Shown: positions 12,439-15,021 of the stretch, piece after piece
Layout: the number at the start of each line of letters is the position of its first letter
How positions within the stretch are numbered: the first letter of the stretch is position 1
Source of the DNA: Desulfonauticus sp.
GTDB lineage: Bacteria > Desulfobacterota > Desulfovibrionia > Desulfovibrionales > Desulfonatronovibrionaceae
Length of the DNA stretch: 64,000 bases
Reading direction: 5' to 3'
NCBI GenBank assembly: GCA_030950395.1
Contig: JAUZRP010000014.1
Span: 62,001-126,000, forward strand
Notes under the pieces: model-generated
Database searches by the model: none
Seen by the model: only the letters and a program-made list of their open reading frames with translations
What the model was told of the DNA's origin: nothing
Made by a program: the position numbers and the translations under genes

Positions 12439-13215
12439 TTACTCCAATATTTTATTTAAAAAAGATTGAATACGTTTGGGCATGTTGGAAGAAGAAAAAA
12501 ATTCCTTGCTTTGTGCTTGGGCTATAATTTCGCCATTTTCCATAAAAATAACTCTATCTGCCATTTCTTTGGCAAAACCCATTTGATGAGTAACTATAAT
12601 CATAGTCATTCCTTCCTCAGCCAATTTTTTAATAGCTTCAAAAACTTCTCCCACTAACTCTGGATCCAGTGCCGAGGTTGGTTCGTCAAAAAGCATTAAT
12701 TTGGGCTTCATAGCCAGAGCCCTGGCTATGGCCACTCGTTGTTTTTGTCCTCCAGATAGACAAACAGGATAAACATCTTTTTTATTTAGTAAACCCACTT
12801 TAGAAAGCATATCTAAAGCGATTTGTTTGGCCTCATCTTTACTTTTTTTCTGAACAGTTCTTGGACCTTCCATTACGTTTTCTAATACAGTCATGTGCGG
12901 AAACAAGTGAAAATGTTGAAAAACCATTCCAATTTCAGCCCTTAAGGTTGAGATATTTTTAGCCTTATCTAAAATTCGTTTTCCTTTTTTGTAAACATAT
13001 CCAACTTCCTTACCTTGAAAGAAAATTTGTCCTTGATCTATTGTTTCTAAAAAATTTATTGTTCTAAGTAAAGTTGATTTGCCTGATCCAGATGGACCTA
13101 TAATACATAATTTTTCACCAGAATAAAGTTTTAGGTTCACGTTTTTTATGGCTATAACTTTACCAAATTTTTTATGAATATTTTTTAGTTCTAATAACGG
13201 ACTATTATTTTTGTT
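12439..13215 (-). CDS. glnQ: Polar amino-acid ABC transporter ATP-binding protein
   Basis: An ATPase of the GlnQ/HisP family, 258 residues from the ATG at 13215. Walker A GPSGSGKST at 41-49, Q-loop Q101, signature LSGGQ at 154-158, Walker B LMLFDEP and H-loop H211 are intact. The ATG overlaps the end of the permease gene by 11 bp, implying translational coupling. A TTG 33 bases further upstream is also in frame but has no ribosome-binding site and would lengthen the overlap. With the two genes upstream it forms a binding-protein-dependent amino-acid importer. Substrate cannot be named; the glnQ symbol denotes family only. Confidence 0.85.
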   Translation of the reverse strand, partial: NKNNSPLLELKNIHKKFGKVIAIKNVNLKLYSGEKLCIIGPSGSGKSTLLRTINFLETIDQGQIFFQGKEVGYVYKKGKRILDKAKNISTLRAEIGMVFQHFHLFPHMTVLENVMEGPRTVQKKSKDEAKQIALDMLSKVGLLNKKDVYPVCLSGGQKQRVAIARALAMKPKLMLFDEPTSALDPELVGEVFEAIKKLAEEGMTMIIVTHQMGFAKEMADRVIFMENGEIIAQAQSKEFFSSSNMPKRIQSFLNKILE

Positions 13216-14233
13216 CATAAGCCCCAACTTTTCTTTCCACTTTTTCAAAGATAAGAGTAAATATACTGGTTAAAATAAGATAGATTAGTCCTGCCAAAAT
13301 TAGAATTTTTACGTCAAAATAGGTATTAAAAAGTTGATCTGCAGATCTCATTAATTCTACCATAGCAATAGTGGAAACCAGAGCAGTATCTTTAATCAAG
13401 GCAATAAATTCATTGGCGATAGGTGGAATGATTCTTTTATAGGTCTGAGGTATAATAATGCGTCTCATGGCTTGAGAATAAGTCATACCTAAAGCCAAAG
13501 CAGCTTCCATCTGGCCAGCGTCAATGCTTTGAATGCCGGCTCTGATAATCTCTGCCAGGTAAGCGGAATAATTTAGACCCAAACCTAAGAAAGCTGCAGT
13601 TAAAGGCTTGAGCGTTATGCCAAGAGCAGGTAGGCCATAATAGATGAAAAATAACTGTAGAAGCAGAGGGGTTCCCCGGAAAAGCCAGATAATGCACCAG
13701 CACAAACTACTAAGAGGATAAAAACGACTAATCCTACCCAGAGCAATTAGAAGGCCGCCAAAAGGAGACACAAGCATGGTAAACAATACTAGTATCAGCG
13801 TCATCAAGGTGCCTTTGAGTAGAGCAGGTAAGTATTTATACGTGTCTTTAAAAAATTGAATAATAACTGGTTGATTTAAGTTTTGGATTTCGTGCAATAA
13901 ACTTTTTGTTTCTTTATGATTGGGAAAGTATTTGAGAATGGTCAAACATTCTTTTTGAGCTAAATTGTATTTTTTTTGATTATAATAAAGTCTTGCCAAA
14001 AGTAATCTTGCCTTTAAAAAATCAGGATTTTTTTGCTTATTTACAAAAGGAGGAATTTTATAAAAAATATGTTTTGCTTTAGCCAAATTGCCCATAGCAA
14101 GAGCTTGTTCTCCTTGTTGATAAAGGGAGAGACACTCTCCTGCTATAGGAATTAAAAAAATAAAAAGGAAAAAGAGCAGGCCTAATATCATCCTGCTCTT
14201 TTGGTTTTTATTAGTTAAAATTTTTATTACCAT
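13205..14233 (-). CDS. Polar amino-acid ABC transporter permease with TPR-like N-terminal domain
   Basis: A 342-residue protein, about 120 residues longer than usual HisM/GlnP permeases. Residues 15-33 form a signal or anchor segment. Residues 35-125 look like tetratricopeptide helices (QGEQALAMGNLAKAKHIFYKI and LLLARLYYNQKKYNLAQKE) and would be periplasmic. The permease follows from about residue 135: TLMTLILVLFTMLVSPFGG, then WLFRGTPLLLQLFFIYYGLP and the EAA region EAALALGMTYSQAMRRIIIPQ. Its start overlaps the binding-protein stop in ATGGTAA. The extension may help dock the binding protein (inference). The reading frame is continuous across both parts, with no sign of a frameshift. Confidence 0.85.
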   Translation of the reverse strand: MVIKILTNKNQKSRMILGLLFFLFIFLIPIAGECLSLYQQGEQALAMGNLAKAKHIFYKIPPFVNKQKNPDFLKARLLLARLYYNQKKYNLAQKECLTILKYFPNHKETKSLLHEIQNLNQPVIIQFFKDTYKYLPALLKGTLMTLILVLFTMLVSPFGGLLIALGRISRFYPLSSLCWCIIWLFRGTPLLLQLFFIYYGLPALGITLKPLTAAFLGLGLNYSAYLAEIIRAGIQSIDAGQMEAALALGMTYSQAMRRIIIPQTYKRIIPPIANEFIALIKDTALVSTIAMVELMRSADQLFNTYFDVKILILAGLIYLILTSIFTLIFEKVERKVGAYEQK

Positions 14234-15021
14234 TTTTTAGGATTTGTTATGTCTTCTCCAAACCATTTTATGGAGATTTTGGCCATAGTACCATCAGCTA
14301 CCATTTTATCTAATTCTTTTTGAATAACTTCTAATAACTTTTTATCTTCTTTTCTAAAAGCCACCCCAAAAGGTTCTTTGGTGATAAAGCCGGGTAAAAT
14401 CTTATATTTACCTGGCTGAACAGAAATATAATATCGTCCAGCAACATTATCTACTACCATAGCATCAAGTCTTCCTGCTTCTAAATCTAAAAATGCTTTG
14501 GGATTAGAGTCATATTCCCTTACTTCTTTGGGAGTAACTGGTAGTTTTTTTACAGCTTCAACAGCTGAAGAACCTTTTTGCACCCCTATTACTGCATTTT
14601 TTAAATCCTTAAAAGAATGAATTTTGTTTTCATTAAACCGAACAACAACCACTTGTCCATCCATAATATATGGTCGGGTAAAATTAACTTTTTTGGCTCT
14701 TTCTGGAGTAATGGTCATACCATTCCAGATGCAATCAAATTTTTTGGCGTACAAAGAATGAATTACACCATCCCAGGCTGTTGGTTGCCACTTTATTTTT
14801 ATACCTAGACGCTTTCCTAAGGTCTCTGCAGCGTCTATATCAAAACCAGTTAAAGTGCCGTCTGCTTTCCTAAACCCCATGGGAGGAAAAGCATCGTCCA
14901 AACCAATAACTAATACACCTTTAGATTTGACTCTTTGCCAGGAATTATCCTGAGCATAGCTGGTGTGGGATAAAATTACACAACCCATCATTAATAAAAT
15001 GCTTGCCAATAACCTTTTCAC
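14227..15021 (-). CDS. Polar amino-acid ABC transporter substrate-binding protein
   Basis: A 264-residue family 3 solute-binding protein with a signal peptide ending near SHTSYA (residue 23). The mature part begins with GVLVIGLDDAFPPMGF and contains GFDIDAAETLGKRLG, the WNGMTITPERAKKVNFT block and GVQKGSSAVEAV, all typical of polar amino-acid binders. It is the first gene of the minus-strand transporter operon that continues with the TPR-permease and ATPase. A GGAGG site lies 6-10 bases upstream of the ATG. The ligand is not predictable from sequence alone. Confidence 0.88.
   Translation of the reverse strand: MKRLLASILLMMGCVILSHTSYAQDNSWQRVKSKGVLVIGLDDAFPPMGFRKADGTLTGFDIDAAETLGKRLGIKIKWQPTAWDGVIHSLYAKKFDCIWNGMTITPERAKKVNFTRPYIMDGQVVVVRFNENKIHSFKDLKNAVIGVQKGSSAVEAVKKLPVTPKEVREYDSNPKAFLDLEAGRLDAMVVDNVAGRYYISVQPGKYKILPGFITKEPFGVAFRKEDKKLLEVIQKELDKMVADGTMAKISIKWFGEDITNPKKW

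Follow-up and report, generated by a model that had tools for sequence, protein, structure and literature searches.

In GlnPQ-type ABC importers, binding domains are fused to the N-terminus of the permease. The protein described here resembles them in that a HEQRo permease is preceded, in the same chain, by a periplasmic domain, but this domain consists of TPRs and the substrate-binding protein (SBP) is encoded by a separate gene. In Pfam, the binding-protein family PF00497 was absent from the fusion protein and present in that separate gene. The GlnPQ binding-domain chain 6h30 is among the solved matches of this SBP. HEQRo/PAAT importers, e.g. 4YMS, have the same permease fold and sequence and an SBP and ATPase of matching families, but they are without the signal sequence and the periplasmic TPR arm that precede the first membrane helix in our protein.

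A periplasmic TPR protein also serves a binding-protein-dependent importer in the TPR-protein-associated TRAP transporters (TPATs), where the TPR protein TatT binds the binding protein (PMC5812351, accessible part of the text). For the arm described here such a role is putative. According to the same part of PMC5812351, TPATs differ in being TRAP rather than ABC transporters and in that TatT is a separate, larger lipoprotein. Instead of TRAP subunits and a separate TPR lipoprotein, our locus encodes an ABC permease with the TPR in the same chain.

Operons of ABC importers may also contain internal regulatory elements. Partial terminators between SBP and permease genes have been demonstrated in cellulolytic Clostridia, where they keep the SBP in excess; these internal terminators have a low U content and still terminate, and selective RNA processing and stabilisation is named as an alternative strategy for obtaining unequal products (PMC9045158, accessible part). 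Coupled ribosomes prevent the formation of intrinsic-terminator hairpins (PMC5021804, accessible part).

Each part of the system reported below is known. Among the titles and beginnings of abstracts listed in our searches of open-access literature, none dealt with their combinations, an ABC permease bearing a TPR arm and a terminator that doubles as signal-peptide codons. If a recurrent TPR arm on an ABC permease handles the SBP, this would be a novel mode of doing so, open to an ordinary transport assay.

Architecture of the fusion protein and its operon

The fusion gene lies on the minus strand (13205..14233) of a 64,000-nucleotide stretch of Desulfonauticus sp. DNA, hereafter called the window. 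In the ORF reading of the window, its frame runs uninterrupted through 342 codons, from an ATG at 14233 to a stop codon ending at 13205, and encodes 342 aa. It is the second gene of a three-gene operon. The first gene (14227..15021, minus strand) encodes an SBP of the SBP_bac_3 family with a length of 264 aa (PF00497, 149.2 bits against a cut-off of 26.4). The two genes share 7 bases, ATGGTAA (14227..14233, minus strand), which hold the start codon of the fusion and the stop codon of the SBP. The third gene (12439..13218, minus strand) encodes the ATPase (ABC_tran, 131.6 bits) and overlaps the end of the permease; we set its start at the in-frame ATG at 13218, while the program's ORF starts at TTG 13248. 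The SBP, permease and ATPase genes are the only close operon neighbours.

A preliminary description of this DNA had proposed an amino-acid permease fused in one continuous frame to TPR-like helical pairs behind a signal-like segment, and domain models bear this out. TPR_19 was assigned to residues 44–113 (29.8 bits, cut-off 25; Pfam), which identifies the N-terminal part as a TPR, and BPD_transp_1 to residues 162–336 (72.4 bits, cut-off 26.4; Pfam). HEQRo_perm_3TM at residues 135–232 (95.1 bits, cut-off 42.2; NCBIfam) classifies the permease as HEQRo-type, and the flanking SBP_bac_3 and ATPase genes are those of a HEQRo-type amino-acid ABC permease. Based on Pfam, NCBIfam, and matches in sequence and structure, the permease domain comprises residues 123–342 (13208..13867, minus strand). 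By Pfam, AlphaFold2 and structure comparison, the TPR arm occupies residues 37–120 (13874..14125, minus strand) and contains two TPRs and a capping helix.

The AlphaFold2 model, built from 34 aligned sequences, has a mean pLDDT of 85.6 over the whole chain and of 92–97 in the blocks over residues 41–120. Its predicted helices comprise a signal helix (10–26), the first TPR (37–46 and 50–58), the second TPR (70–85 and 89–102), the cap (107–120) and the first membrane helix (123–168). Modelled alone, the TPR part reached a mean pLDDT of 92.6. Among the 50 PDB matches listed for this part most are TPR proteins (probability 0.94–1.00, E-values of 0.03 and worse), including designed TPRs, Fis1 and YbgF. 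When the whole model was compared, residues 35–121 matched four TPR-bearing chains at Z 11.4–11.5; for predicted helical repeats such values show a shared fold and no more. The closest solved relative of the permease is the amino-acid importer permease 4yms, both by sequence (E 2.3e-44) and by fold (rank 1 in Foldseek with 42% identity; Z 21.5, rmsd 2.9 over 208 residues).

The topology of the permease supports a periplasmic arm, as the preliminary description had suggested. Residues E243, A244 and G249 are invariant across the 34 aligned sequences, and they lie in a stretch that we take to be the EAA loop. The EAA loop is cytoplasmic and contacts the ATPase side of the importer. Since it comes after three membrane passages, the part of the chain ahead of the first membrane helix should be outside, and hence the TPR arm in the periplasm. 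An arm at this location needs an export signal. The signal-sequence codons (residues 1–33; 14135..14233, minus strand), recognised by charge, hydropathy and helix 10–26, encode a net charge of +4 followed by a 12-residue core with a mean hydropathy of 3.23, a hydropathy above that of the other two frames.

Recurrence and descent of the fusion

The preliminary description had called for a search for the same architecture and had considered it unusual. It is indeed uncommon: among related genomes, 6 of 61 carry the fusion, and phylum-wide the figure is 16 of 395, with the genome of origin included in both counts. In public genomes, it was present at at least 12 loci (12 of the 80 loci kept, out of 94 confirmed). 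The latter result comes from a single scan with six peptide patterns of the window protein, on which the occurrence outside the phylum rests. Named carriers are Desulfonauticus sp. 38_4375, a Syntrophaceae MAG, a Thermodesulfobacteriota MAG and MAGs titled Deltaproteobacteria. Repeats with equal scores and equal sequence (L008, L039, L119–L125 and L128) were dropped, leaving 25 distinct fusions.

All 25 distinct homologues share the gene order SBP, TPR-permease, ATPase, with the SBP gene directly upstream and the ATPase gene directly downstream of the fusion. The other 24 SBPs are 51–89% identical to that of the window. With start codons that we chose from the sequence, the fusion start overlaps the SBP stop codon in 17 genes and lies 6–154 nt past it in the remaining 8. 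A charge of at least +1 and a hydrophobic core are present in all 25 homologues (12-residue means of 2.2–3.4, above either other frame), and a simple rule found a candidate signal-peptidase site in 24 of the 25 homologues checked, the one without being L134.

BLAST scores were at least 342 bits for fusions and at most 170 for plain permeases, and in a permease-domain tree of 109 rows a single branch (support 88/93) separated the 25 fusions from the other rows, which amounts to one state change; the program warned of long branches meeting at the fusion group. A chance fusion is rejected by the recurrence in three genome sets and by the single tree group. In the first 13 fusions, mean column identity was 0.43 in the signal, 0.63 in the TPR part, 0.80 in the linker and first membrane helix, and 0.89 in the remaining permease. 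Seven TPR columns are invariant among these 13 (A53, F72, A80, C96, L100, P104 and L112). The TPR parts of the 12 homologues compared are 18–42% identical to that of the window. A search of the own genome for a TPR paralogue as the source of the domain gave weak matches only (E 0.007 and worse).

Three further frames of 494–574 aa, in Acidobacteria/Armatimonadota records (L063:4011-5615, L067:3951-5672 and L070:4134-5615), have a C-terminal HEQRo-type permease and a long N-terminal part.

A hairpin in the signal-peptide codons

The signal-peptide codons of the window gene contain a hairpin with an 11-bp stem and an 11-base loop (14170..14202, minus strand), which starts 31 bases into the fusion gene. 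This feature, perhaps more surprising than the fusion itself, is absent from the preliminary description. Its RNA fold has a free energy of −17.8 kcal/mol (z −3.90), and it outscores all 44 control windows from its own locus. A T-rich tract on its 3′ side (14154..14169, minus strand), with 9 T among the first 12 bases, coincides with the codons of the hydrophobic core. A terminator scan did not include the window hairpin among its sites, which were no more numerous than in shuffled sequences; the scan allows loops of up to 8 bases, which explains the absence of this 11-base loop.

An in-gene stem of 9–18 bp with a score of at least 24 is present in 22 of the 25 fusion genes. The exceptions are L013 with a weak in-gene stem, L127 without a real hairpin, and L134 with a hairpin between the genes; hence, an in-gene hairpin is not obligatory. 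The count would rise to 24 if the weak stem of L013 and the 7-bp stem of L127 were taken in, but neither is counted here. Using the coding part alone, 21 of 25 genes had a stem that outscored all control windows from the same locus (the exceptions are L013, L127, L134 and, by one window, L133). A wider test that included the DNA ahead of the start codon gave 22 of 25, and 23 of 1075 control windows attained the observed score; in this test L131 and L134 have their best stem ahead of the start codon.

The stem finder selected the regions, so that pair counts are biased by this selection; synonymous recoding and the two control-window tests serve as controls. Relative to recodings with synonymous codons, the genes had a mean z of −2.7, and 16 of the 25 fell below −2. 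In a set of ten sequences (A4), every one of the 130 cells of a 13-bp stem was paired, and 6 of the 13 pairs showed double changes; sliding one partner by 1–3 columns reduced pairing to 28–49%. Covariation was weak in a second set of eight sequences (A5), where 78.8% was paired, 27 of 500 shuffles were as high and one row was off by three bases. Both sets are subsets of 22 junctions, from which L011, L013, L048 and L049 were omitted, while L127, L131 and L134 were left out of the DNA alignments altogether. RNAalifold applied to the 22 mixed junctions found no consensus and no pairs, which we attribute to the presence of two stem types and of shifted stems (L012, L048 and L049) that are out of register.

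Plain operons have a similar hairpin in a different position. At 54 of 70 control loci, defined by an SBP gene no more than 600 nt upstream of the permease, a hairpin with a score of at least 24 follows the SBP stop codon, and 50 of these 54 wholly precede the first possible permease start. These counts are not independent, since the control loci include many near relatives and perhaps a few repeats. An operon on contig 141 of the own genome (L003) also has an intergenic hairpin. The hairpins of the fusion family resemble the internal terminators described in the accessible part of PMC9045158 in being stem-loops soon past the SBP gene, with a long stem and often few U. Those are described there as lying between genes, in contrast to the fusions, of which 22 of 25 have the stem within codons for the following gene's signal peptide; in L134 it is located between the genes. 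With an intergenic hairpin in plain operons and a demonstrated one in Clostridia, the fusion family appears to have kept a known element in place, with a reading frame now running over it.

Two loci deserve separate mention. The hairpin of L134 stands ahead of the start codon as in plain operons, possibly an ancestral-like or a reverted state. In L013, an apparent second inverted repeat, seen by eye and unscored, precedes the weak in-gene stem, in the DNA that separates the SBP stop from the start codon.

Possible roles of the hairpin and the TPR arm

We propose that the single permease gene of a three-gene importer for polar amino acids (cystine/glutamine-like) gained an exported N-terminal TPR arm. 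As there is a single permease gene, two copies of its product presumably make up the membrane part as a homodimer, and each importer would then have two periplasmic TPR arms beside the SBP docking place. The SBP–permease junction would retain the partial terminator that is usual for such operons. As the permease frame begins at or near the SBP stop, it contains the hairpin and the T-tract, both of which code for part of the signal peptide. On a share of the transcripts, RNA polymerase would come to a halt at the in-gene hairpin, leaving an excess of SBP, and a ribosome that starts promptly on the fusion frame would melt the hairpin, so that the permease and ATPase messages are transcribed. This ribosome-controlled termination is suggested because a ribosome translating the fusion must pass the hairpin and coupled ribosomes block terminator hairpins. 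The whole account, a TPR-armed importer whose arm holds or steers the SBP and whose in-gene partial terminator is melted by the ribosome, seems to us slightly better than an even bet.

The hairpin may thus keep the permease scarcer than the SBP. A stricter version, which we advance tentatively and at rather less than even confidence, holds that an intercistronic intrinsic terminator was overprinted: its stem and U-tract would encode the signal peptide, the signal peptide may even have been born from the terminator, and a ribosome reading it would melt the terminator, which would thereby be a translation-coupled switch. If true, about sixty bases would set both the export of the TPR arm and the SBP-to-permease ratio. 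Such a dual-use stretch, in which one sequence governs protein export and RNA structure, comes with many natural variants in this family, including exceptions. Two questions thereby become testable: how an operon whose control element is also read by ribosomes sets unequal product amounts, and whether terminators can give rise to signal peptides.

Two other explanations of the hairpin need to be weighed. It could be a 3′ stabiliser of the SBP mRNA or a processing site, with RNA stability rather than termination yielding the SBP excess. The processing and stabilisation strategy mentioned in PMC9045158 (accessible part) fits this idea, and so does the scarcity of T past many stems: several GC-rich members have just 4–6 T in the 12 bases that follow (4 of 12 in L047–L049), and L014 has only 2 of 12. 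However, in L129–L133 a GC-rich stem is followed by TTTTTT, the textbook form of a terminator, and the low-U internal terminators of ABC operons in the same part of PMC9045158 terminate nonetheless; we regard stabilisation or processing as rather unlikely. Alternatively, the stem could be a by-product of codon choice for a signal peptide of the Arg-x-x-Ala-Leu-Leu-Phe type. Encoded signal peptides are alike within a branch, and in the comparison with synonymous recodings 9 of the 25 genes do not fall below z −2 (L013, L040, L048, L127, L129–L131, L133 and L134), four of which (L129–L131 and L133) are among the most terminator-like. Against this stand the 16 genes below z −2, the compensatory changes in the ten-sequence set and the same kind of hairpin in the non-coding DNA of plain operons, which together make a by-product very improbable.

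With regard to the arm, one may ask whether it is made at all. Translation might begin near residue 125–131, with the upstream frame open by chance, and alignments of plain relatives begin only at about residue 104–140. Moreover, 10 of the 25 genes (L040, L041, L043, L045–L050 and L127, the window gene not among them) have an in-frame ATG at about residue 131, within a KDM motif where the first membrane helix begins, and L044 has a GTG at this position. The window gene has no in-frame ATG, GTG or TTG across residues 114–142, the nearest being TTG at 113 and 143. A start near residue 125, the caveat attached to the preliminary description, is therefore rejected for this gene. Furthermore, the frame upstream of about residue 131 is open and alignable in all 25 genes, each with a signal peptide, and the TPR fold is predicted with high pLDDT both in the full model and alone. 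An unmade extension is accordingly an extremely remote prospect, although in the one family branch with the KDM-motif ATG a second, internal start giving an armless permease is possible, judging by sequence. A different question is what the arm binds. The guess offered in the preliminary description was that the domain may capture the SBP or sense periplasmic partners. By analogy with TatT, which binds the TPAT binding protein, our first guess is that the arm holds or steers the cognate SBP, an idea that fits the SBP gene lying directly upstream in all 25 loci and to which we give somewhat less than half of our confidence. Its main rival would be another envelope partner (outer-membrane, peptidoglycan-associated or redox) at which the arm places the importer. 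TPRs bind many proteins, sub-cut-off matches include YfiO/BamD (20 bits against 25 in Pfam, 22.4 against 81.4 in NCBIfam) and YbgF (15.6 against 90.1), and Xanthomonas YbgF is among the structural matches listed for the TPR part. Matches to TPR proteins indicate the fold rather than the partner, however, and the operon offers no close neighbours beyond the transporter genes; such a partner is conceivable but doubtful.

The importer with an SBP-handling arm that we favour likely transports a polar amino acid, judging from its protein families. Among the solved binding proteins, those nearest to the SBP of the window are reconstructed ancestral proteins, with AncQR as the best match, followed by polar amino-acid binders. 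Cystine is only the leading candidate: the best NCBIfam models, those of cystine importers (TcyJ/L/N type), gave 194 of the required 300 bits for the permease and 203.9 of 312 for the SBP, both below cut-off. The own genome also encodes an SBP_bac_3 domain inside a 795-aa frame on contig 13 (L138), perhaps part of a sensor or an enzyme rather than of a transporter.
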